Part shown: in pieces, positions 685 through 40,961 of the stretch
Position numbering within the stretch: the first letter of the stretch is position 1
How the letters are laid out: each line of letters starts with the position of its first letter
Assembly: GCA_903922605.1 (NCBI GenBank)
Contig: CAIXUG010000023.1
Span: 1 to 53,451, forward strand
Direction: 5' to 3'
Length of the DNA: 53,451 bases
Origin: an uncultured Verrucomicrobiota bacterium
GTDB taxonomy: Bacteria > Verrucomicrobiota > Verrucomicrobiia > Limisphaerales > UBA9464
Translations under genes and position numbers: made by a program
The notes under the pieces: generated by a model
The model's input: the letters and a program-made list of their open reading frames with translations, nothing else
Told to the model about the DNA's origin: nothing
Databases searched by the model: none

Positions 685-1574
685 ACACACCCACTGACAA
701 TCCCGCCGACTGTCTCGGACGGGAATTTACCATCATCCGCGAGTTCGCCGCGCCGCGCGAACTGGTCTTCCAGACGTGGACCGATGCGAAACATGTGGCG
801 CAGTGGTGGAGCCCGAAAGGATTCACCAACCCGGTTTGCGAATGGGACGCGCGTCCCGGCGGCAACATCTACGTCGTGATGCAGGCACCCAACGGGGTCC
901 GCTACCCGATGGGTGGGCAGTTCCGCGAAGTCGTTGTGCCTGAACGGCTGGTGCTGACCACGGGCGCCCTCGACGAGCAAGGCAAGCTGATGTTCGAACA
1001 GCTGCACACCGTGACCTTCGTGGAGCTGAACGGGCAAACCACGCTCACGATCCAGTCACGGGTCATCAAAACGTCGCCCGGCGCCGGCAAATACATCGGC
1101 GGCTTCGAGGCGGGCATGTCGCAGAGCCTGGAGCGGCTCACCGGACGTCTGGAAAACCTGCCGCTGGTGGTCGAGCGGACCTTCGATGCGCCGGTGGCCA
1201 AGGTGTGGCAGGCCCTGACGGACGTGGAGGCCATGCGACAGTGGTTTTTCGAACTGAAAGAGTTCCGACCGGAAATCGGCTTCGAGTTTGGATTCAGCGT
1301 GGAGCACGAGGGAATGACTTACGTTCATCTTTGCCGGGTCACGGAAGCGGTTCCGTTGCAGCGGCTGGCCTACACGTGGCGCTACGAAGGGCATGCGGGC
1401 GATTCACTGGTCACGATGGAACTGTTTGCCGAGGGGAAGGGGACCCGGGTCAAGCTGACCCACACCGGATTGGAGACCTTCCCGAAGACTCACCAGTTCC
1501 GGCGCGCGAATTTCAGCCGGGGCTGGACCGCGCTGATTGGCTCCTCGCTGAAGGAATTTTTGGAAACCAAATAA
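681..1574 (+). CDS. Tandem SRPBCC (AHSA1-type) domain protein
   Basis: A 297-residue protein made of two START/Bet v1-like SRPBCC units, about residues 13-150 and 153-297. Each opens with the family signature: IIREFAAPRELVFQTWTD followed by QWWSPKGF, and VERTFDAPVAKVWQALTD followed by MRQWFF. Such domains bind small hydrophobic ligands or act as Aha1-like partners, and no catalytic residues can be assigned. The gene overlaps the regulator by four bases and is followed after 21 bases by another tandem SRPBCC gene, so the operon encodes four SRPBCC units under one ArsR regulator. The two units are diverged from each other, suggesting an old fusion. The ligand is unknown. Confidence 0.8.
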   Translation: MNTPTDNPADCLGREFTIIREFAAPRELVFQTWTDAKHVAQWWSPKGFTNPVCEWDARPGGNIYVVMQAPNGVRYPMGGQFREVVVPERLVLTTGALDEQGKLMFEQLHTVTFVELNGQTTLTIQSRVIKTSPGAGKYIGGFEAGMSQSLERLTGRLENLPLVVERTFDAPVAKVWQALTDVEAMRQWFFELKEFRPEIGFEFGFSVEHEGMTYVHLCRVTEAVPLQRLAYTWRYEGHAGDSLVTMELFAEGKGTRVKLTHTGLETFPKTHQFRRANFSRGWTALIGSSLKEFLETK

Positions 1575-1595
1575 GCAACCACACGCATACAAACT

Positions 1596-2561
1596 ATGGC
1601 TGAACCCATGAAGGAGATGACCAGTGACCGTGAAATCGTGGTGACACGCGAGTTTCAAGCGCCCCGGAGCTTGGTCTGGGAGGCGATGACGAATCCCCAG
1701 CACGTGGTGAACTGGTGGGGCCCGCGCGGCTTCACCACCACCATCGAGACGATGGATTTTCGCGTCGGCGGCGAGTGGAAGCACGTCATGCGCGGGCCGG
1801 ATCGCGCGAAGTATCCGAACCGGAGCATCTTCCGGGAGATCGTGGATCAGGAGCGCATCGTCTATTCGCATGGTGGCGCGCGTGAGGGCGGGCCGGGGGT
1901 GCGCTTCGTCTCCACCTGGACCTTTGAGGCGCTGGCAACGGACCGCACCCGCGTGACGATCCGTCTGGCCTTCGCGACGCCCGAGGAGCGGGATTTTGTC
2001 GTCAAGGAGTTCGGCGCGGTCGAAGGCGGCCGACAGACCCTGGAGCGGCTCGGCGAGCACCTCGGACGGACCCAATGCGAACCGTTTACGATTTCCCGCG
2101 AGTTTGCGGCCCCGCGTGAGGTGGTTTGGAAAGCATGGACGGATCGCGAATGCCTGATGCAGTGGTTCGGCCCCAAGGGCTGGACCATCACCGTAGCGAA
2201 GCTGGATTTCCGGGTTGGTGGGGAATTCCACTACGGGATGAGCATGCCGGATGGCAAGGAGATGTGGGGCAAGTGGATCTTCCGCGAGATTGTGGCACCG
2301 GAGAAAATCGTCCTGCAGAACTCGTTCTCGGACAAAGATGCTGGAATCACGCGTCCGCCGTTCCCCGGCAAATGGCCCTTGCGGATGCTGACCGAGACGA
2401 CGTTCACGGAGCAGGACGGCAAAACCACCATCACGCTGAAGTGGTTCCCGCTGGATGCGGATGCCGAAGAAATCAAGACGTTCGACGCGGCGCGCCCCGG
2501 ATTTACCGTGGGCTGGGGTGGGACGTTCGAGCAGCTCAGCGCGTATCTGGCGAAGGTCTGA
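1596..2561 (+). CDS. Second tandem SRPBCC (AHSA1-type) domain protein
   Basis: A 321-residue protein with two SRPBCC units, about residues 11-155 and 163-321. Both carry the WWGPRGF / WFGPKGW signature after the first helix, and DFRVGGE motifs are conserved in both halves. The first unit begins VTREFQAPRSLVWEAMTN and the second ISREFAAPREVVWKAWTD, so the halves are more alike than those of the upstream gene. The ATG at 1596 gives the expected N-terminus; a second in-frame ATG at 1608 is possible. It is the last gene of the operon, and the hairpin at 2631-2680 follows. Role unknown; ligand binding or stress-related hydrophobic-compound handling is typical of the family. Confidence 0.8.
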   Translation: MAEPMKEMTSDREIVVTREFQAPRSLVWEAMTNPQHVVNWWGPRGFTTTIETMDFRVGGEWKHVMRGPDRAKYPNRSIFREIVDQERIVYSHGGAREGGPGVRFVSTWTFEALATDRTRVTIRLAFATPEERDFVVKEFGAVEGGRQTLERLGEHLGRTQCEPFTISREFAAPREVVWKAWTDRECLMQWFGPKGWTITVAKLDFRVGGEFHYGMSMPDGKEMWGKWIFREIVAPEKIVLQNSFSDKDAGITRPPFPGKWPLRMLTETTFTEQDGKTTITLKWFPLDADAEEIKTFDAARPGFTVGWGGTFEQLSAYLAKV

Positions 2562-2630
2562 ATTCCGACACGGCCTGCATTCGCTGAGAAATAGCCTGGC
2601 TCGTTATTGAGTCAGGAGTCGGTAGCTGGA

Positions 2631-2680
2631 GCGGATCGAAGTTCGCGTGAAGTCACGTGTGCTTCGATCCGCTTTCTTTT
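2631..2680 (+). terminator. Intrinsic terminator of the ArsR-SRPBCC operon
   Basis: An 11-bp perfect stem (GCGGATCGAAG at 2631-2641 with CTTCGATCCGC at 2662-2672) encloses a second small stem (CGTGA/TCACG) and is followed by TTTCTTTT. It lies 70 bases after the SRPBCC stop codon. Confidence 0.75.
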
Positions 2681-2928
2681 CAGCGTTACGTTCGAAGTCA
2701 CGGGGAGCGCGAGTGGATGGCTCTTTTCGCGTCCATTTTGAGACAGGCTGGACATTAGGGGACAGTGATCGGCGTCGCCGAGCCAAGTGTTGAAGAAAAT
2801 TCTTATGCGCGGCAGGGAGAACGGCTGCAAGGCAGGGGCGGATGCCGCAGAGCGGAACTTCGTTCAGCAATAAGATTCATGGTTTTGAGCAATGCAATTC
2901 AAGTCTGTTCCCGGACCGTAACCTGAAT

Positions 2929-2945
2929 TTGGCAGTCCGGTAGCT
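2929..2945 (+). promoter_or_regulatory. Candidate sigma-54 (-24/-12) promoter for the porin-urt operon
   Basis: TTGGCAGTCCGGTAGCT matches the sigma-54 pattern TTGGCAC-N5-TTGCW with the invariant GG (2931-2932) and GC (2943-2944) exactly ten bases apart. Mismatches are at the C and G after GGCA and at one T of TTGC. Transcription would start near 2956, giving a 5' leader of about 145 bases to the start at 3100. A sigma-54-type activator is encoded at 17924-19447, which makes the site more plausible, but no other evidence is available. Confidence 0.45.
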
Positions 2946-3099
2946 CAAGCGGTTGTGGGACCAGTAAATGGCCAAATCCAACCAACCAGCATTCCATCAA
3001 TCTCCAAAAGGCACCGCCTGATTGCGTATTGATGGGGTGTGAATGGCGGAACGCCTGGCAGTCCCTGAACCCAACTCAAGCACCACCATCACATCGATA

Positions 3100-4392
3100 A
3101 TGAAGAATAGCCCCATGGGATATCGCAGACAACGGCTGGCACCGCTCGGACTCGCACTTGGCGTGGCCATCTCCAACGCCGCTGGTATCGGTGCGCTGTC
3201 GGCCTTTGCCGACGACGCGAGCAAACTCGACAAGCTGGCGCAGGAAAACCAGGACCTGAAGAACCGTTTGGACGCCCTGGAAGGGGTTGCCAAAAAGGAA
3301 GGCATTCTGCCGTCGGCCGATCCCTCTCCCAAGATCGTCACCGCGATGTCGGACATCACCATCACTGGTTTTGCCCAGGCTTCCTATTTCTACAACACCC
3401 AGAAGCCGGCAGACGGCCTCTCCGACGGTTATCTGTGGAACACCCGGGACAATTCATTTTCCCTCAACAAGTTCAAGCTGACCATCGCCAGCAAACCGGT
3501 GGCCACCGACAAGTGGGACGCGGGCTTCAAAGCCTCGCTGCTTTTTGGGGACGATGCTCCCGATCTGAACACTGCCGGTTCAAACGGCACCGGTAGCAAT
3601 ACCAGCTTCAATGATGTGCGTGAGGCGTACGTCGAGATCAACGTGCCCGTCGGCACCGGCCTGAACATCAAGGCCGGCGAGATGATCTCGCTGCTGAACT
3701 ACGAGTCCGGCGATGGCGGTGCGGCGAACGTCAACTTCTCCCAGGGCAACCAGTGGTGGTTCACCGGCAATGGGCCCTCGGCGGGCGTTCAGGCCTCCTA
3801 CAACTTCACCGACAAGATCGGCCTGACCCTGCGGGTGGACAACGGCCTGTTCCAGGGCCCGGTGGACAATAACTCCGGCAAGGACTTCAGCGGCAGCATC
3901 AACTTCAAGCCGAACGCCAAGCTCTGGGCGAACCTCTATTTCTACTATGATGCCCAGCCGGCCAAGTTGGATGTATCGGGCCTCGGTTCCATCGGTGGCT
4001 ATCAGTTCACTGAGAAACTGGGCACCGGCTACGAAGTCGACTATTTCCATTACTCCAGCCCCGGAAGCAGCGTCGACCAGTGGTCGGTGGGTGGTTGGGC
4101 CTGGTACGACTTCACTGCCAAGGTGGGCCTGGCCTTGCGTGCCGATCTGATCGAAAGCCCGGATTCTCCCCTTTCGCCTCCTGACGTCCGTGCCGGCGCG
4201 GGCATTGCCAGCGGTTTCGCCACCGATTCCAACGGCCATCTGGGCAGCCTGACCCTGACCCTGAACTACAAGCCGGTTCCCAGCCTCAAGATCCAGCCGG
4301 AAATCCGTTACGACTTCACGTCCTTCAAGAACGGTCTGGATGGCAAGAAAGACCGCGTGATCGTGGGCGTGGGCGTGACCTACCTGTTCTGA
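3100..4392 (+). CDS. Outer-membrane beta-barrel porin (BBP2/OmpL-like) preceding urt genes
   Basis: About 430 residues. The N-terminus (MKNSPMGYRRQRLAPL, then a hydrophobic stretch ending ALSAFA) is a signal peptide, and a short coiled-coil segment (residues about 40-60, LAQENQDLKNRLDALEG) follows, as in trimeric or peptidoglycan-tethered porins. The rest alternates short aromatic-rich strands and ends with VIVGVGVTYLF, the terminal phenylalanine typical of outer-membrane barrels. The motif DITITGFAQASYFYNTQ and the later FSLNKFKLTIASKP fit the BBP2 family. ATG 3100 is chosen because the signal peptide begins there; 3043 and 3115 are alternatives. It ends 39 bases before urtA, suggesting co-transcription and a role in letting urea or other small amides cross the outer membrane. 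Confidence 0.75.
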   Translation: MKNSPMGYRRQRLAPLGLALGVAISNAAGIGALSAFADDASKLDKLAQENQDLKNRLDALEGVAKKEGILPSADPSPKIVTAMSDITITGFAQASYFYNTQKPADGLSDGYLWNTRDNSFSLNKFKLTIASKPVATDKWDAGFKASLLFGDDAPDLNTAGSNGTGSNTSFNDVREAYVEINVPVGTGLNIKAGEMISLLNYESGDGGAANVNFSQGNQWWFTGNGPSAGVQASYNFTDKIGLTLRVDNGLFQGPVDNNSGKDFSGSINFKPNAKLWANLYFYYDAQPAKLDVSGLGSIGGYQFTEKLGTGYEVDYFHYSSPGSSVDQWSVGGWAWYDFTAKVGLALRADLIESPDSPLSPPDVRAGAGIASGFATDSNGHLGSLTLTLNYKPVPSLKIQPEIRYDFTSFKNGLDGKKDRVIVGVGVTYLF

Positions 4393-4431
4393 GTCCTCCC
4401 GTTCGAACCCCAATTCCTTAGCAAGCGAAAC

Positions 4432-5658
4432 ATGAAACCTAGTTTCTCCAAAATTTTGGCCGGCGCAGCCGCCGGCCTCATAGCCCTCACGGCCAGTGCC
4501 GCCGACACGGTCAAGGTCGGCGTCCTTCACTCCCTCAGCGGCACCATGGCCATCAGCGAAACCTCGCTGAAGGACGTGCTGCTCTTCACGTTCGACGAGA
4601 TCAACAAGAAGGGTGGCGTCATGGGCAAGATGATCGAGCCCGTCGTGGTCGATCCCGCCTCCAACTGGCCGCTCTTCGCCGAAAAGGCCGAGGAACTGCT
4701 GGTGAAGGACAAGGTGGCGGTCGTTTTCGGCTGCTGGACCTCGGTCAGCCGCAAGTCCTGCCTGCCCGTGTTCGAGAAGGAAAACGGCCTGCTCTTCTAC
4801 CCCGTGCAGTACGAGGGCGAGGAGCTGTCCAAGAACATCTTCTACACCGCCGAAGCCGTGAATCAGCAGGCCATCCCGCCGGTTGATTACATGCTCTCGG
4901 AGGGCAAGAAGAAGTTCTACCTGCTCGGCTCGGACTACGTCTATCCCCGCACGACAAACAAGATCCTGAAGAAGTATCTGAAGTCGAAGGGCATTCCGGA
5001 TTCCGACATCGAGGAAATCTACACGCCGTTTGGTCACACCGACTACCAGACGATCGTCGCTTCCATCAAGAAGTTCGCGGCCGGCGGCAATGCCTGCATC
5101 ATCTCCACGCTGAACGGGGACACCAACGTGCCGTTCTTCAAGGAGTTCGCCAACGCGGGCCTGACCTCGGAAAACTGCCCGGTGGTCTCGTTCTCGATCT
5201 CCGAGGATGAATTCCGCGGCCTGCCGGCGAAGCAGCTTGCCGGTCACCTCGGCTGCTGGACCTACTTCATGTCCATCAAGACCCCCGAGAACGAGATGTT
5301 CGTCCATGACTTCCTGTCCTGGGTGCAGGCGCCCAAGGTCAGTGGCATCGATTACACGGTGAGCGGCGTCGATCCCAAGGGCCGCGTCACCTGCAGCCCC
5401 ATGAACCTGTCCCGTATGGGTGTCTATCTGTGGAAGCAGGCGGTCGAGAAGGCCGGCACCTTCGATGTGGACAAGGTGCGCGACGCGCTCATCGGCCAGA
5501 AGTTCAAGGGCCCGGTGTGCGAGGTCACGATGCAGGAGAATCATCACCTGATTAACGACGTCTTCATCGGCGAGACCCTGCCGACGGGCCAGTTCAAGGT
5601 GATCAAGACTTTCAAGGGCGTCGCTGGCGAGCCCTTCAGTGAGAAGTTCCTCAAGTAA
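4432..5658 (+). CDS. urtA: Urea ABC transporter, periplasmic substrate-binding protein
   Basis: A 408-residue type I periplasmic binding protein with a signal peptide (hydrophobic core about residues 8-22, cleavage after ASA). The mature start [17 protein letters not shown] and later [19 protein letters not shown] and [12 protein letters not shown] are diagnostic of UrtA rather than of LivJ-type amino-acid binders. UrtA delivers urea to the UrtBC channel. Length is normal for the family. The gene heads the urtABCDE set and is followed by a strong hairpin (5677-5707) that could keep UrtA expression above that of the membrane subunits. Confidence 0.95.
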
Positions 5659-5821: not shown

Positions 5822-7540
5822 GTGAAATATTCTCTGCTGATCTTGCTGGGCTGCCTGACCCTGTTGCTGCCGGTTCGGGGGGCGGAAAACCAGGCCTTCT
5901 ACCGCGACATTCTGGTCAAGGCGATCAACGAGGAGGACAGCGCCAAACAGATTGCGCTCGTCAAGGAGCTGGTCGCCGCCGGGGACGAGCTGGTGGAGCG
6001 CGGTCTGGCCGCCTGGCGTGTGAGTGAGCTTTTTGTCAATTCCGAGGCGAACGGCCTCAAAGTCCCTTTCGTGCTCGACACGCAGCTCGACAGCGATGGC
6101 AAGGCCAAGGCCATCCGGCTTACCGACGGGAAGTTCATCACCGATGCCGCCGGGAAGCCCCTGCTGTTCCGGGCGAATGAGCTTACGGCGGTGGATAACA
6201 ATTCCCGCATCCGTCGCGCCATCAAGACGACGCTGGATCTTTTCGCCATCGGCAATCCGGTTCCAAAACTCCGCCGCGACGCCGTCATCAAGCTCGGTCA
6301 GGAGCAGAATCCGGAATATCTTCCCCACTTCCAAAACCGCCTGAAAACCGAGACCGATCCGGAGGTCATCAAGGCGCTGAACGAGGCGGTGGCGCTCACG
6401 CAGACGGTCGATGCCGACGCGGCCGTGCGGAATCCGGCCATCATCAAGCTGGGTCAGATGCGTTCGATCAACGCGCATGACTTTCTGGTGCAGCTGGAGA
6501 CGAAGGTCAAAGCCGACCGAGCCAAATACGGCGAGGAGACTTTGCAGGTACTGCAGAAAACGATTGTCCAGATAGAGAACTACCAGCGGTGGGGAACGCT
6601 GTTTGGCACCGCTTTCCGGGGTGTCAGTCTGGCGGCGGTGCTGCTCGTGGCCGCCCTTGGCCTGGCGATCACGTTTGGCCTGATGGGCGTCATCAATATG
6701 GCCCATGGCGAGGTCATGGCGGTGGGCGCTTACACGACCTTTTTTGTGCAGGGAGTGTTCGGCAGCGGCCTGCTGTTTTCGCTTTTTGGCAAGACCGTCA
6801 CCGTGAAGGGCATGGGCCTGACCGGGGGTGGATTTGACTGCTATTTCATCGTTTCGCTGGTCGCCTCGTTTGTCATGGCCGGTCTGGTCGGGCTTGCCTT
6901 GGAGCGCGGCATCATCCGATTTCTCTACAAGCGTCCGTTGGAATCGCTTCTCGCCACCTGGGGCGTGAGCCTGATTCTCCAGCAGATTTTCCGGCACACC
7001 TTCGGTTCGGCCAACGTTCAGGTGGATGCTCCAGGGTTCCTGCAGGGCAGCCTGGTGGTGGACGATGTGCTTTTTGCCTACAACCGCATCTTCATCATCG
7101 GCTTCGCCGGGTTCGTGGTGCTGCTCACGTGGCTGCTGCTGACCAAGACATCTCTTGGCCTCCAGATCCGGGCCGTGATGCAGAACCGCACCATGGCCTC
7201 CTGTGTCGGTGTCCGCACGGACCGCGTCAACATGATGACCTTCGCCTTCGGCTCCGGACTGGCGGGGATGGCGGGGGCGTGCATGACCCAGATTGCCAAT
7301 GTCGGTCCCAGCCTCGGCCAGAACTACATCATCGACTGTTTCATGGTGGTGGTGCTGGGCGGCGTCGGGAACTTGGTCGGCACCGTGTCTGCCTCGGCGG
7401 GTGTCGGGATCACCAACCAGGTATTGGAGCCGTGGCTGGGTGCGGTGCTGGGCAAGATCACCGTGCTGACGGCGATCATCCTTTTCCTTCAGTGGCGGCC
7501 CAACGGCCTGTTTGTCACCCGCAGCCGCAGCCTCGACTGA
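5822..7540 (+). CDS. urtB: Urea ABC transporter, permease subunit UrtB
   Basis: A 572-residue LivH-type permease. A signal-like N-terminus (SLLILLGCLTLLLPVRG) is followed by a periplasmic region of roughly 230 residues, which is characteristic of UrtB, and then by a membrane domain from about residue 255. That domain carries the family motifs GLMGVINMAHGEVMAVGAY, SLLATWGVSLILQQ and VVVLGGVGNLVGTV. It pairs with UrtC to form the urea channel. The start is a GTG at 5822, chosen because the signal segment begins there. The downstream spacer to urtC is 139 bases and contains a UUCG-capped hairpin. Confidence 0.95.
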   Translation: MKYSLLILLGCLTLLLPVRGAENQAFYRDILVKAINEEDSAKQIALVKELVAAGDELVERGLAAWRVSELFVNSEANGLKVPFVLDTQLDSDGKAKAIRLTDGKFITDAAGKPLLFRANELTAVDNNSRIRRAIKTTLDLFAIGNPVPKLRRDAVIKLGQEQNPEYLPHFQNRLKTETDPEVIKALNEAVALTQTVDADAAVRNPAIIKLGQMRSINAHDFLVQLETKVKADRAKYGEETLQVLQKTIVQIENYQRWGTLFGTAFRGVSLAAVLLVAALGLAITFGLMGVINMAHGEVMAVGAYTTFFVQGVFGSGLLFSLFGKTVTVKGMGLTGGGFDCYFIVSLVASFVMAGLVGLALERGIIRFLYKRPLESLLATWGVSLILQQIFRHTFGSANVQVDAPGFLQGSLVVDDVLFAYNRIFIIGFAGFVVLLTWLLLTKTSLGLQIRAVMQNRTMASCVGVRTDRVNMMTFAFGSGLAGMAGACMTQIANVGPSLGQNYIIDCFMVVVLGGVGNLVGTVSASAGVGITNQVLEPWLGAVLGKITVLTAIILFLQWRPNGLFVTRSRSLD

Positions 7541-7679: not shown

Positions 7680-9224
7680 ATGAAGCGAACCTTCTCCCAA
7701 CGGGAAATCCTCTTTGTCGCGCTGGCGTCGGTAATCGGCCTGATTGTGCTGCCCTGCCTGAACGCCTTCGTCCCGCCGGAGAGCGCGCTGCATGTCAGCA
7801 CCTTTTCCCTGAGCCTTTACGGCAAGTACCTGACCTACGCCGTGCTGGCACTCGGAGTGAACCTGCTCTGGGGCTACACCGGGCTGCTCTGCCTCGGACA
7901 AGCACTGTTCTTCTCGCTCGGTGGCTACTGCCTGGGCATGTACATGATGATGAACATCAGCCGGCTAGGGCAGTATCACGAGGCCATTCCCGACTTCATG
8001 GTGTTCCTGGAATTCCCGGCACGGTTTCCCGCGACCGGCGGATTGCCGCCGCACTGGATTCCCTTCAAGCACTTCTGGTTTGCGGCGCTGATGATCATCC
8101 TCGTGCCGGCGGTGGTGGCCTACATTTTCGGGTTCCTCGCCTTCCGCTCGCGCATCAAGGGAGTGTATTTCTCGATCCTCAGCCAGGCGCTCACGTACGC
8201 CGCGTGCCTGATGTTTTTCCGCAACGACTTCACCTTCGGCGGCAACAATGGTCTGACCGATTTCAAATTCCTGCTGGGCACACCGGCAGTGGAAGCGGCG
8301 GATATCCGGAACCCAGCGGCTTTCGCCACCAAGCTGAAAGACGGTTCCGACGGCGTGAGCAAGTTCCTGTGGAGCCAGCTGGCCGCAACCAACCAGGCCA
8401 AAGTTACCGAACTTCTCGGGGCCGGAAAGGCGGCAGAAATACCCGCCGTGGTCGTGGATGATCTCAACAAGACCATCGCCACAGCCTTGATCTACGACGG
8501 GCCACGCTTCACCGGAGTCACGCTGTCGCCCGAAACCAAGCTGCTGCTCGCTTCGTCACCCAAGGACGCGGCCACGTTGAAGCTCAACCGGATGCTGCTG
8601 GAAGACGCCTTTCCGCAGGAATTGGCGAAGAAGTCCTTCACCGGATATATCGTCAATGCCCCCTCTACCAAGCGCGCCCTCTACATCTGCTCCGGTGTGC
8701 TGCTGCTACTGACGTATCTCTTCTGCCGCTGGCTGACCTCGACCCGGTTCGGGCTGATCCAGCGGGCGGTGCGGGATTCCGAAAACCGCGTGCTCTTTTC
8801 CGGCTACGCCACCGCGAACTTCAAGCTCTTCGTGTTCGTGATCGCCGCGATCATCTCCAGTCTCGGCGGAGCGCTCTTCGTGCCGCAGGTCGGCATCATC
8901 AACCCCAGCGAGATGGGCGTGGACAAGTCCATCGAGGCCGTCATCTGGGTGGCCGTGGGCGGACGCGGCAACCTGCTCGGGCCGATCCTGGGCGCGATCG
9001 GCATCAACTCGCTCAAGAGCTATGCAACCCACTCCTTCGCCGAGCAATGGCCCTACGTTCTCGGCGGCCTGTTTGTGTTTGTGACGCTGTTCATGCCCAA
9101 GGGGCTCATCGGGCTGCCCGACCAGTTGCGCGGCCTGGCGAAGAAGTTCGCCAAGAAACCCGCGGCGGAGATTTCCGCTGCTGCCATTCCCGAGACCAAG
9201 CTCGAACCCACCGGAAAAGAATGA
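7680..9224 (+). CDS. urtC: Urea ABC transporter, permease subunit UrtC with a large internal insertion
   Basis: A 514-residue LivM-type permease and partner of UrtB in the urea channel. Core motifs are present: GVNLLWGYTGLLCLGQA near residue 60, NGLTDFKFLLG ending near residue 200, and, after the insertion, RALYICSGVLLLLTYLFCRW, ENRVLFSGY and AVGGRGNLLGPILGA. UrtC is usually about 360-390 residues. Here about 125 residues (about 201-327, nucleotides 8280-8660) separate LTDFKFLLG from the PSTKRALY segment that normally follows within a few residues. The insert is hydrophilic, alanine- and lysine-rich, and would sit in a periplasmic loop. The start is the ATG at 7680, not a TTG 45 bases upstream. 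The stop overlaps urtD (ATGA, 9221-9224). Confidence 0.92.
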   Translation: MKRTFSQREILFVALASVIGLIVLPCLNAFVPPESALHVSTFSLSLYGKYLTYAVLALGVNLLWGYTGLLCLGQALFFSLGGYCLGMYMMMNISRLGQYHEAIPDFMVFLEFPARFPATGGLPPHWIPFKHFWFAALMIILVPAVVAYIFGFLAFRSRIKGVYFSILSQALTYAACLMFFRNDFTFGGNNGLTDFKFLLGTPAVEAADIRNPAAFATKLKDGSDGVSKFLWSQLAATNQAKVTELLGAGKAAEIPAVVVDDLNKTIATALIYDGPRFTGVTLSPETKLLLASSPKDAATLKLNRMLLEDAFPQELAKKSFTGYIVNAPSTKRALYICSGVLLLLTYLFCRWLTSTRFGLIQRAVRDSENRVLFSGYATANFKLFVFVIAAIISSLGGALFVPQVGIINPSEMGVDKSIEAVIWVAVGGRGNLLGPILGAIGINSLKSYATHSFAEQWPYVLGGLFVFVTLFMPKGLIGLPDQLRGLAKKFAKKPAAEISAAAIPETKLEPTGKE

Positions 9225-9982
9225 GCAAGGAATTCATCCTGACCGTCGAGGGGGTCACGAAGACGTTCGATGGCTTCAAGGCCATCTCGGACCTCAACTT
9301 CTACATGGATACGGGGGAGTTGCGGGTGATTATCGGGCCGAATGGCGCGGGCAAGACCTCGTTCCTCGACCTCATCACCGGCCGCACCAAGCCCGACGTG
9401 GGCAAGATCGAGTTCGGCAAGGACACCGACCTGACGCGGCTCAACGAGTACCAGATCAACCGTCTGGGCATTGGCCGGAAATTCCAAACGCCATCGGTCT
9501 ACATCGACCACACGGTTTACGAGAACATCCTGCTCTCGCTGCAAGGATCGCGCAGTGTCTGGTCCGCACTCTTCTCGCGCGTCACACCCGCCCAGCGCGA
9601 CCGTATCCAGGAAGTGCTCGAAACCGTGGGCTTGGCGGCCAAGGCCAATAGCAAGGCGGGTTTGCTGGCGCACGGCCAGAAGCAGTGGCTGGAAATCGGG
9701 ATGCTGCTCGCACAAAATCCCAAGCTGCTGCTGGTGGATGAACCCGCCGCCGGCATGACCGACGAGGAAACCGCCAAGACGGGTGAACTGCTGATCAGCC
9801 TCGCTGGCAAGCACAGCATCGTCGTCATTGAGCACGACATGGTCTTCGTCCGCCAGATCGCCCGGAAGGTCACGGTGCTGCACCAGGGACATGTGCTCTG
9901 CGAGGGCACGGTGGACGAGGTCCAGAACAACGAGCGCGTCATCGAGGTTTATCTGGGCCGGAAGAAGAAGGAGAAACACTGA
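9221..9982 (+). CDS. urtD: Urea ABC transporter, ATP-binding subunit UrtD
   Basis: A 253-residue ABC ATPase. Walker A is GPNGAGKTS, the signature region is LLAHGQKQWLEIGM and Walker B is LLLVDEPAAGM. The GQKQWLEIG form of the signature and the GRKFQTPSVY segment are typical of UrtD and separate it from LivG. It energises urea import together with UrtE. The ATG at 9221 overlaps the urtC stop, so translation is coupled. A 113-base spacer filled with two heptanucleotide arrays follows before urtE. Confidence 0.95.
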   Translation: MSKEFILTVEGVTKTFDGFKAISDLNFYMDTGELRVIIGPNGAGKTSFLDLITGRTKPDVGKIEFGKDTDLTRLNEYQINRLGIGRKFQTPSVYIDHTVYENILLSLQGSRSVWSALFSRVTPAQRDRIQEVLETVGLAAKANSKAGLLAHGQKQWLEIGMLLAQNPKLLLVDEPAAGMTDEETAKTGELLISLAGKHSIVVIEHDMVFVRQIARKVTVLHQGHVLCEGTVDEVQNNERVIEVYLGRKKKEKH

Positions 9983-9985
9983 TGG

Positions 9986-10088
9986 AAGCTCAAAATTCAA
10001 AGCTCAAAAATCCAAGGTGCCGTGACCGGGCGGCCGAATTGGACTGGGCCTGATTGAATTTTGAGCTTTGAGCTTTGAATTCTGAATT
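9986..10088. repeat. Two facing heptanucleotide arrays in the urtD-urtE spacer
   Basis: Left array (9986-10013): consecutive 7-mers AAGCTCA, AAATTCA, AAGCTCA, AAAATCC. Right array (10054-10088): TTGAATT, TTGAGCT, TTGAGCT, TTGAATT, CTGAATT. The right units are reverse complements of the left ones, so the spacer RNA could fold into a long hairpin; 14 bp (9987-10000 with 10055-10068) pair perfectly. The period of exactly 7 is shared with arrays elsewhere in the window. Confidence 0.8.
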
Positions 10089-10095
10089 TTCCCGC

Positions 10096-10791
10096 ATGCT
10101 GACCCTTTCCAACCTTTCCGTTTCCTACGACGGCTCCCGCATCCTGCGCGGGGTCAACCTGACGGTGCCCGAGAAGAGCCTGGTCTGCCTCATGGGCCGC
10201 AATGGCGTGGGCAAGACCACGACGCTCAAATCCATCATGGGGTTGGTCGCGCCGGATTCCGGCGAAATGACACTCGATGGGAAATCGCTCAACGGACTCA
10301 AGCCGGATGGCCGTTCCCGAGCAGGTCTCGGCTATGTACCGCAGGGACGCGACATCTTCCCCCACCTCACGGTCTGGGAAAACCTGAAGATCAGCCTCGT
10401 GGTTCATGGGGCCAAGGAGAATGGCCAGGTCGAGCGCGTCCTGGAGCTGTTCCCCATCCTGAAGGAGTTCCTCCAGCGCAAGGGCGGCGTACTCTCCGGG
10501 GGCCAGCAGCAGCAGCTCGCCATCGCGCGCGCGCTGCTCACCGACCCGAAGATCCTGCTGCTCGACGAGCCGACCGAGGGCATTCAGCCCAACATCATCG
10601 ACCTGATCGGCGACACGCTGGTGAAGATCAAAAAGGAGGGAAAGATCAGCATCCTGCTGGTCGAGCAGTACCTCGATTTCTGCCTCGCGGTCGGCGACAT
10701 CTTTTACATCATGGATCGCGGTGCGATCGTGGCCGAGGGGCCCATCGCAAAACTCGATGACGACATGGTGAAAGCGCATCTCACGGTATGA
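10096..10791 (+). CDS. urtE: Urea ABC transporter, ATP-binding subunit UrtE
   Basis: A 231-residue ABC ATPase with Walker A GRNGVGKTT, signature LSGGQQQQLAIARAL and Walker B ILLLDEPTEGIQPNII. The GIQP sequence after Walker B is typical of UrtE. ATG 10096 is chosen because MLTLSNLSVSYDG starts the ABC fold directly; the in-frame upstream codon at 10075 would lie inside the repeat array. The stop overlaps the next ATG (10788-10791), tying the transporter genes to the urease genes. Confidence 0.95.
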   Translation: MLTLSNLSVSYDGSRILRGVNLTVPEKSLVCLMGRNGVGKTTTLKSIMGLVAPDSGEMTLDGKSLNGLKPDGRSRAGLGYVPQGRDIFPHLTVWENLKISLVVHGAKENGQVERVLELFPILKEFLQRKGGVLSGGQQQQLAIARALLTDPKILLLDEPTEGIQPNIIDLIGDTLVKIKKEGKISILLVEQYLDFCLAVGDIFYIMDRGAIVAEGPIAKLDDDMVKAHLTV

Positions 10792-39125: not shown

Positions 39126-40064
39126 TCAAGCCTGCTTCTTCTTCCACAGCGGCCAGACGAACAGTCCCTGCGGCCGCGTGATCATCAGAACGATGAGGAG
39201 GAGCGAATAGAGGATCATGCGCCAGTCGCCGAGCTGGCGGAGGGGCTCCTGCACGGCGGTGAGCAGGATGGCCGCGAGGATCACGCCCACGTGCCGGCCC
39301 ATGCCGCCGAGGATGACCATCACCACGATCTCGATGCTCTTGTTGAAGTCGAAGCCGCCGGGATTCAGGTAGCCCTTGAGGTGCGCATAGAGTCCACCCG
39401 CCACGCCGGCGAAAAAGGAGCCGACCACGAAAGCCGTGATCTTGTAACGCGTGGGGTTCAGGCCCATCGCTTCGGCCGCCACCTCGTCATCGGCCACCGC
39501 GAGGAAGCCGCGACCGTAGGTGGAGTTCAGCAGCGCCCAAACGACATAGACCGTCACGGCGGCGACCCCGAAGGTCCAAAACAGGTTCGTGTAGTTCGGT
39601 ATGCCCACCAGGCCACGAGCACCGCCCACGGCGTCCACATTCTGGAAGATGACCTTGATGATCTCGCCGAAACCGAGGGTGACGATGGCGAGGTAGTCGC
39701 CCTTGAGCCGCAGCGACGGTGCGCCGACGGCGAGGCCGGCCAGGGCCGCGAGCAGCCCGCCAACCACGAGGCTGAGCGGGAAAAGGATCCAGACCTGACC
39801 TCCCACGAGCGGCAGGAGCTTTGGGCCGAAATTGGTCGTGATCACCGCCGACGAGTAAGCCCCGACCGCCATGAATCCCGCGTGTCCGAGCGAGAACTGG
39901 CCGGTGAAGCCGTTGATGAGGTTCAGACTCGCTGCGAGCGTGACCGCAATCCCCACACCCATCGTCACATCGAGAAAGTAGGGATCAATCCGCCCAGAGA
40001 ACGCGGAGACAATTCCCGCCACCACCAAGGTTGCCAAAAGCCAGAGCTGGGATTTGGGAGGCAT
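39126..40064 (-). CDS. livM: Branched-chain amino acid/amide-type ABC transporter permease LivM
   Basis: A 312-residue permease with about eight to ten membrane helices. NLINGFTGQFSLGHAGFMAVGAY, LRLKGDYLAIVTLGFGEII, RGFLAVADDEVAAEAMG and MVILGGMGRHVG are the LivM hallmarks. It forms the transmembrane channel with LivH. Gaps to its neighbours are six and seven bases, so it is translated as part of one operon. Unlike urtC in this window, it has no internal insertion. Confidence 0.93.
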   Translation of the reverse strand: MPPKSQLWLLATLVVAGIVSAFSGRIDPYFLDVTMGVGIAVTLAASLNLINGFTGQFSLGHAGFMAVGAYSSAVITTNFGPKLLPLVGGQVWILFPLSLVVGGLLAALAGLAVGAPSLRLKGDYLAIVTLGFGEIIKVIFQNVDAVGGARGLVGIPNYTNLFWTFGVAAVTVYVVWALLNSTYGRGFLAVADDEVAAEAMGLNPTRYKITAFVVGSFFAGVAGGLYAHLKGYLNPGGFDFNKSIEIVVMVILGGMGRHVGVILAAILLTAVQEPLRQLGDWRMILYSLLLIVLMITRPQGLFVWPLWKKKQA

Positions 40065-40070
40065 AGGTGT

Positions 40071-40961
40071 TCAAACCTTCTCGACGCGCATCTTGCCCAA
40101 GAGGCCCGCCGGGCGAAACAGCAGGATCAGGATCAGGATGGCGAAGGCGATGGCGTCGCGGAAGGTGGAGGCCCTGGTCCCGGAGATGAACGTCTCCACC
40201 AGGCCGATGAGCAGGCCGCCTAGCGCGGCACCGGGCAGGTTGCCGATACCGCCGAGGACCGCCGCGACGAACGCTTTCAGGCCCGGCAGCGTGCCCATGA
40301 GCGGGTCGATGCTCGGGTAGTTCATCGCGTACAGGATGCCCCCGGCACCGGCCAGCGCGGAACCCAGGGCGAAGGTGAACGAGATCACCGCGTCGTTGTT
40401 GATGCCCACGAGCGAGGCGGCGGTGGCGTTGAAGGACAGGGCGCGCATCGCGGTGCCGATGCGGGTGCGGTGGACGATCCACCACAGCATGACCAGCAGG
40501 AAGACGCTCACGGCCAGCACAATAAGCTGGTTGCTGGAGACGGTGAGTTCGCCGAAGTGAAGCTGCGTCTCGGGGAACAGCTTCGGGAACGCGCGCGGAT
40601 TCGGGCCGAAAAGCTTCTGCCCGCCATTCTGCAGCAGCAGCGACACGCCGATGGCCGTGATGAGCACCGTGAGGGTGGAGCGGTTTCGCAACGGCCTGTA
40701 GGCGAGTTTTTCGATGATGACGCCGAGCAGGGCGCAAGCAGCCATCGCCGCGAACAGCACTGCCAGGCCACCTGGCACCGAGCCGGCGCCCAGCTTCGGA
40801 GCGAGGTAGAAGCCCACGTAGGAACCGATCATGAAGACGTCGCTGTGGGCGAAGTTGATGAAGCGCAGCACCCCGTAAACCATCGTGTAGCCGAGCGCGA
40901 TGAGCGCGTAGATCGCACCCAGGGACAGGCCGTTGATGAGTTGTTGCAGCAGTTCGGTCAT
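40071..40961 (-). CDS. livH: Branched-chain amino acid/amide-type ABC transporter permease LivH
   Basis: A 296-residue permease. LQQLINGLSLGAIYALIALG at the N-terminus, MVYGVLRFINFAHSDVFMIG, TRIGTAMRALSFNATAASLVGIN and AAVLGGIGNLPGAALGGLLI are characteristic. It pairs with LivM. It lies between the first substrate-binding protein gene (gap 54) and livM. Confidence 0.93.
   Translation of the reverse strand: MTELLQQLINGLSLGAIYALIALGYTMVYGVLRFINFAHSDVFMIGSYVGFYLAPKLGAGSVPGGLAVLFAAMAACALLGVIIEKLAYRPLRNRSTLTVLITAIGVSLLLQNGGQKLFGPNPRAFPKLFPETQLHFGELTVSSNQLIVLAVSVFLLVMLWWIVHRTRIGTAMRALSFNATAASLVGINNDAVISFTFALGSALAGAGGILYAMNYPSIDPLMGTLPGLKAFVAAVLGGIGNLPGAALGGLLIGLVETFISGTRASTFRDAIAFAILILILLFRPAGLLGKMRVEKV

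Follow-up and report, generated by a model that had tools for sequence, protein, structure and literature searches.

An in-frame insert in the urea permease UrtC

The window analysed here, a 53,451-nucleotide stretch (contig CAIXUG010000023.1) from an uncultured Verrucomicrobiota bacterium of the Limisphaerales (UBA9464), carries a urea ABC transporter (urt) operon on its forward strand. Directly upstream of urtC lie urtA (4432-5658), encoding the urea-binding protein (TIGR03407, 519.4 bits against a cut-off of 492.75), and urtB (5822-7540), encoding the permease partner of UrtC (TIGR03409, 373.7 bits, cut-off 250.3), both above their family cut-offs. UrtB has an N-terminal region of its own, long and HEAT-like (5822-6610), ahead of its membrane part, with HEAT_2 just below the Pfam cut-off. 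Downstream follow two ATPase reading frames on the same strand, urtD-like (9221-9982) and urtE-like (10075-10791), both named by eye from their translations. The gene between them, urtC (7680-9224, forward strand), encodes a permease of 514 amino acids that agrees with other UrtC proteins in its family score (TIGR03408, 391 bits against 296.2) and in its urtA and urtB neighbours, but that carries 122 extra residues, which most UrtC proteins are without. Other permeases in the window (39159-39776 and 40095-40538, both on the minus strand) match TIGR03408 below its cut-off only.

Empty-site comparison with five block-less sister UrtC proteins (L186, L182, L202, L203 and L204) places the extra residues in a single in-frame insert of 122 codons at 8280-8645 (forward strand; UrtC residues 201-322), made up of a plug-in domain and short linkers. 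The domain core, as matched by a first profile (A1), spans 8304-8633; its last helix has the motif LNRMLLEDAFP, near-invariant in an 82-row alignment (A2). TIGR03408 matches the window protein as two pieces, model positions 2-159 and 152-313, flanking the block. At the junction the block-less sisters read NGLTDFKFILG-ADINSPATKRALY, whereas the window UrtC reads NGLTDFKFLLG, then the 122 residues, then YIVNAPSTKRALY; compared with the sisters, all host residues around the insert are present, making this a clean insertion. Its position has one residue of slack because a Gly stands at both edges, and the YIVNAP to its right is host sequence (compare YDVNLP in L204). We found no clear direct or inverted repeat at the junction. 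The original prediction of a hydrophilic block of roughly this size and place was sound; of the extent it gave, residues 201-327 (8280-8660), the left end is nearly exact and the right end runs about five residues too far.

It is next to inconceivable that a frameshift, chimera or assembly artefact created the block, an outcome that would have undone the original prediction. The reading frame is open across the whole insert, which recurs in eight separate genomes. One of these encodes a near-identical UrtC (L074, genome G485), whose comparison with the window protein gives a dN/dS of 0.124 for the block and 0.061 for the remainder of UrtC, well under 1 in both parts for this one genome pair. 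The comparison shows purifying selection, and hence protein-level constraint, on the UrtC block in one close pair; the same insert in L074, at a dN/dS of 0.12, makes frameshift or misassembly untenable.

Most UrtC proteins in the phylum and order samples are without the block. The phylum sample of 387 genomes gave 40 above the UrtC cut-off, with a within-frame split in the window's own only; the order, with 245 genomes, gave 71, ten of them split within one frame. Eight of the ten have this block and two (G579 and G700) a different insert. In two further UrtC proteins the contig end interrupts the gene; G633 shows part of the block and G560 has no block match. The insert of G579 and G700 (L192 and L193), about 160 residues in the same UrtC loop, is beta-rich and carbohydrate-module-like by eye and has no Pfam match. 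We built a tree of 74 UrtC proteins with inserts cut out, leaving out 13 loci (11 duplicates and the fragments L196 and L197). A single branch (99/90; recovered in 98% of 200 bootstrap trees) separates the eight block rows from the others; they adjoin five block-less rows of the same order, weakly grouped (92/52). The simplest history is that UrtC gained the block once, in one clade. Block-bearing UrtC span four family codes of the order (f1, f89, f102 and f153), and two genomes of the window's own genus (G428 and G499) have block-less UrtC from another branch. Alignment and tree thus confine the block to one UrtC clade, and 'species-specific addition', as first suggested, proves too narrow for something clade-wide in one UrtC branch and widespread as a domain.

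Fold and membrane side of the domain

AlphaFold, given the 82-row alignment, predicted six helices (pLDDT 89.1, pTM 0.83). The model has just two bridge residues, 14 and 120, which suggests that the ends of the domain pair with each other. In a model of full-length UrtC, pLDDT averaged over ten residues at a time stays at about 83-98 across the block; the remainder of the protein, for which relatives are too few, is modelled badly (mean pLDDT 58.2), and this model is informative for the block only. Six columns are invariant in the 82 rows (N108, R109, L111, L112, E113 and A115).

The domain searches called for by the original prediction returned no Pfam match above the curated cut-off among 82 copies, with one weak stray (PTPRCAP, E 0.0033, in one member), and no NCBIfam match among the same copies. 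Nothing credible emerged from sequence search of the PDB (best E 0.063), fold search of the PDB with Foldseek (best E 2.4) or search of viral folds in BFVD (best E 0.37). VIA-align against 74 chains gave weak rows, including DdmD and spidroin N-terminal domains, with Z of 3.9 or less, which we set aside. Searches of open-licence PMC papers found no description of the insert or the domain.

In UrtC, a predicted helix (328-353) alone separates the block from the motif FGLIQRAVRDSENRVLFSGY, which we take to be the cytoplasmic coupling region. With a single helix between them, the block most likely lies on the periplasmic side, as originally predicted. A positive-inside topology script applied to 29 rows called 23 'out' and 6 'in', the window UrtC 'in' and its relative L059 'out'. 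Although its call for the window protein goes against the periplasmic placement, the script is too crude to carry such a claim, having misplaced two of ten E. coli controls relative to their expected orientation.

Occurrence and host proteins

The domain extends well beyond UrtC. A tblastn-like search of the window's own genome with the block alone found the domain in two unrelated proteins (33 and 36% identity): a BrkB-family membrane protein and a long TPR protein, the latter in one cluster with TMEM260-like proteins. With a profile built from 82 copies we recovered the same three copies and none further at E values up to 10. The BrkB-family protein (L010, G000:C3:145999-146355) combines the block with a C-terminal Rrf2-like region. 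Across the order, three quarters of the sampled genomes carry the domain: at E 1e-5, one or more copies are present in 180 of 245, and in 95 of 129 among the better genomes; in a class sample searched with a three-row profile, 51 of 286 genomes had a copy. Among the matches listed, the number per genome reaches 16, all matched frames are at least 252 amino acids long and no copy is free-standing; one match (G391:C114) crosses the stop at the end of its host. Two contigs (G516:C46 and G432:C21) have block copies inside open frames of 15,029 and 17,972 codons.

A scan of genome contigs confirmed 183 of 215 candidates. By record label, the best 80 of the 183, which were kept, comprise 56 from Verrucomicrobiota, 6 from Planctomycetota, 6 from Kiritimatiellota, 3 from Nitrospirota, 3 from Pseudomonadota, 2 from Armatimonadota, 1 each from Chloroflexota and Acidobacteriota, and 2 untold. 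The outer phyla need care because some record labels, of bins called Akkermansia or Klebsiella, look wrong. Assemblies labelled Akkermansia muciniphila or Klebsiella pneumoniae (L080, L096, L097 and L139) look mislabelled. Copy L137, the one copy in its genome, comes from the record of a named and cultivable strain, Paraburkholderia ultramafica LMG 28614.

The collected loci comprise 131 distinct copies in 121 host proteins, which fall into 70 blastp clusters once the blocks are masked; these are not a count of folds, since remote homologues are counted apart (MFS transporters make three clusters). Pfam names 39 of the clusters, with 35 different names, and a Pfam scan of 60 hosts found a family in 46 and none in 14. 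Named hosts include UrtC-type and RbsC-type permeases, BrkB, TatC, MurJ, FtsW/RodA, LptF/G, LptE, LptD_N, SDF symporters, several MFS types, PTS EIIC, AI-2E, MMPL, CAAX protease, MscS, histidine kinase, HlyD and ABC2. They also include SecA, a PRK-type kinase, RT-Cas1, Cas_NE0113, trypsin-PDZ, GDSL lipase, AhpC/TSA, cytochromes, propellers and TMEM260-like proteins, and one host has a Baseplate_J match just under the cut-off. Eight loci hold tandem pairs of blocks (L109, L118, L107, L131, L114, L130, L134 and L128), several of them in LPS-transport proteins (LptE, LptD_N). One contig (G516, C145) has two copies of the block (L209 and L232), with about 13 kb between the RT-Cas1 and Cas_NE0113 proteins that host them. 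The SecA host (L125, frame 1126-4458) bears its block in the second nucleotide-binding region and is the sole SecA found in its record.

Projected onto E. coli K-12 homologues, with L069, L097 and the LptF/LptG rows excluded for lack of clean junctions, the insertion sites fall at residues 49-56 of TatC, 68-86 of FtsW, 23-38 of GltP and 542-549 of SecA. MurJ is entered at 115-127 and, in another lineage, at about 468; YihY (BrkB/YihY) is entered at 60-88 and, in others, at 163-179. Two different sites in each of MurJ and YihY imply separate insertions in both. From the topologies of these proteins, we take the mapped membrane-protein sites to be periplasmic and the SecA site to be cytoplasmic. 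The block-bearing TatC is the sole TatC found in all five of five genomes. In a tree of the blocks themselves, BrkB and MurJ copies are ungrouped, and UrtC, TatC, SDF and LptE copies are grouped; the tree has too few columns and 70 of 128 forks are drawn open, so we used it only to count host changes, of which it needs 29, where the minimum would be 20 and shuffling gives a mean of 61.1.

Origin and role of the domain

As a whole, these observations are best explained by an undescribed domain, six helices and about 120 residues in size, that folds autonomously and inserts into loops and of which one copy sits in UrtC, an explanation we consider likely. The ends of the domain would lie close together, allowing it to slot into a host loop with nothing removed. 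Dozens of unrelated proteins would have received copies, several families of them repeatedly and at different sites. Entry into UrtC would have been a single event, in an ancestor of one clade of UrtC in the window's order; the loop concerned, most likely periplasmic, precedes the membrane helix leading to the ATPase-coupling region. New copies might arise by rare recombination between genes, which is a guess on our part. The UrtC insert is probably a periplasmic appendage on a working permease: judging from sequence, UrtC should still work, as it retains the complete family signature and both parts are under selection.

The original prediction offered a docking or lid domain for UrtA. Such a role would suit the probable periplasmic side of the block, beside the permease, and its retention in UrtC across four family codes of the order. 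It nevertheless explains too little, because TatC, MurJ, FtsW/RodA, SecA, RT-Cas1 and many further hosts contain the same domain, dozens of them having no UrtA, and most UrtC proteins work without the block; we regard a UrtC-specific function of this kind as very improbable. We give rather more weight, while still thinking it doubtful, to the proposal that the UrtC loop is a tolerant site that collects any foldable insert and that the block is functionless there. In its favour, the G579 and G700 proteins have another insert, about 160 residues long, in this loop; purifying selection on the block (one pair) and the keeping of its motif across hosts and phyla speak against it, though both could also reflect a need to stay folded.

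Another possibility is a selfish coding mobile element that enters genes in frame, like Rickettsia palindromic elements or PARCELs, and whose product folds harmlessly. This would account for the clean in-frame insertion that leaves UrtC intact, for up to 16 matches in one genome among the matches listed, for hosts that have no function in common, with cytoplasmic proteins and a CRISPR locus among them, and for the three IMG/VR contigs that carry the domain. Recent copies are missing, however: in the set of 131, the highest identity between two copies whose 60-residue flanks are unrelated is 63% (L081 and L136, from the same assembly), and the remaining such pairs are at 58% or less, the next one, at 58%, being tandem. 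Nor do the blocks have an excess of nucleic-acid secondary structure (mean z of -0.41 over 45 of the 131 copies, where the two flanks give -0.27 and -0.21), while synonymous sites vary freely at the conserved motif and the UrtC insert has no clear direct or inverted repeat. Neither 50,697 phage records, searched with a typed consensus, nor 72,556 plasmid records, searched with one copy as query, gave a match. On balance we find a selfish element unlikely. The domain copies are old, and a recently active mobile element, or recent transposition, is unsupported; spread in the distant past, or at a low rate, may have occurred. Equally unlikely, in our estimate, is a new class of selfish element acting at the protein level, that is, a non-palindromic helical-domain cassette that repeatedly enters essential genes in frame (TatC, MurJ, SecA, FtsW/RodA), persists as a harmless fold and is possibly carried by phages from one lineage to another.

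Of the IMG/VR contigs, all classed as viral, two (L241 and L242) encode protein identical over long stretches to L141, and the host protein of the third (L243) resembles the tail-like proteins L120 and L111. A bias towards CTC at the first Leu codon of the motif was considered as a sign of DNA-level conservation and rejected, as the same bias appears in Leu-before-Asn codons of the flanks (55 of 134).

For the loop-inserting domain we favour, the role that seems most likely to us, and the weakest step of the explanation, is that of a generic accessory binding module, in which the conserved last helix (LNRLLLEDAYP) would serve as contact or core and the target would be common to many sites. The main alternative is a structural, merely tolerated insert, a passenger, and the presence of hosts on either side of the membrane favours this reading. 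It is difficult to propose a single partner when SecA, RT-Cas1, Cas_NE0113 and the PRK-type kinase stand on one side and envelope proteins on the other.

The finding is larger than UrtC: this is a widely spread plug-in module, some of whose hosts are core cell machines, and it is not specific to urea. If the explanation above is right, one small undescribed domain resides in at least 35 differently named Pfam host types, including machines thought to be intolerant of inserts, and provides natural examples of tolerance to large inserts in TatC, MurJ, FtsW/RodA, LptF/G, SecA and ABC permeases, as well as a test case for the origin of in-frame insertions in bacteria. The domain would also explain the oversized look of such proteins in these genomes.

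Among known systems, inteins are in-frame insertions inside conserved proteins, and the domain likewise sits in frame within conserved proteins. Inteins have a Hint-type beta fold, whereas the model of the domain consists of helices only and lacks any strand as long as three residues; Pfam and NCBIfam searches with 82 copies gave no intein or Hint family. Rickettsia palindromic elements are short and palindromic, with similar copies, and place a coding segment in frame into many unrelated genes. The domain resembles them in being inserted in frame into many unrelated genes and differs from them in its 122 codons, its confident globular fold and its lack of near-identical copies and of any structure excess. 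A palindromic-element reading was accordingly set aside, there being no clear junction repeats in UrtC, no close copies among the 131 and no structure excess in the 45 copies sampled. PARCELs are 25-residue tandem repeats with dyad symmetry in the DNA, whereas the domain is a single 120-residue unit, sometimes paired, that has no such symmetry; the two are alike as coding modules found across distant bacteria, often in membrane proteins.
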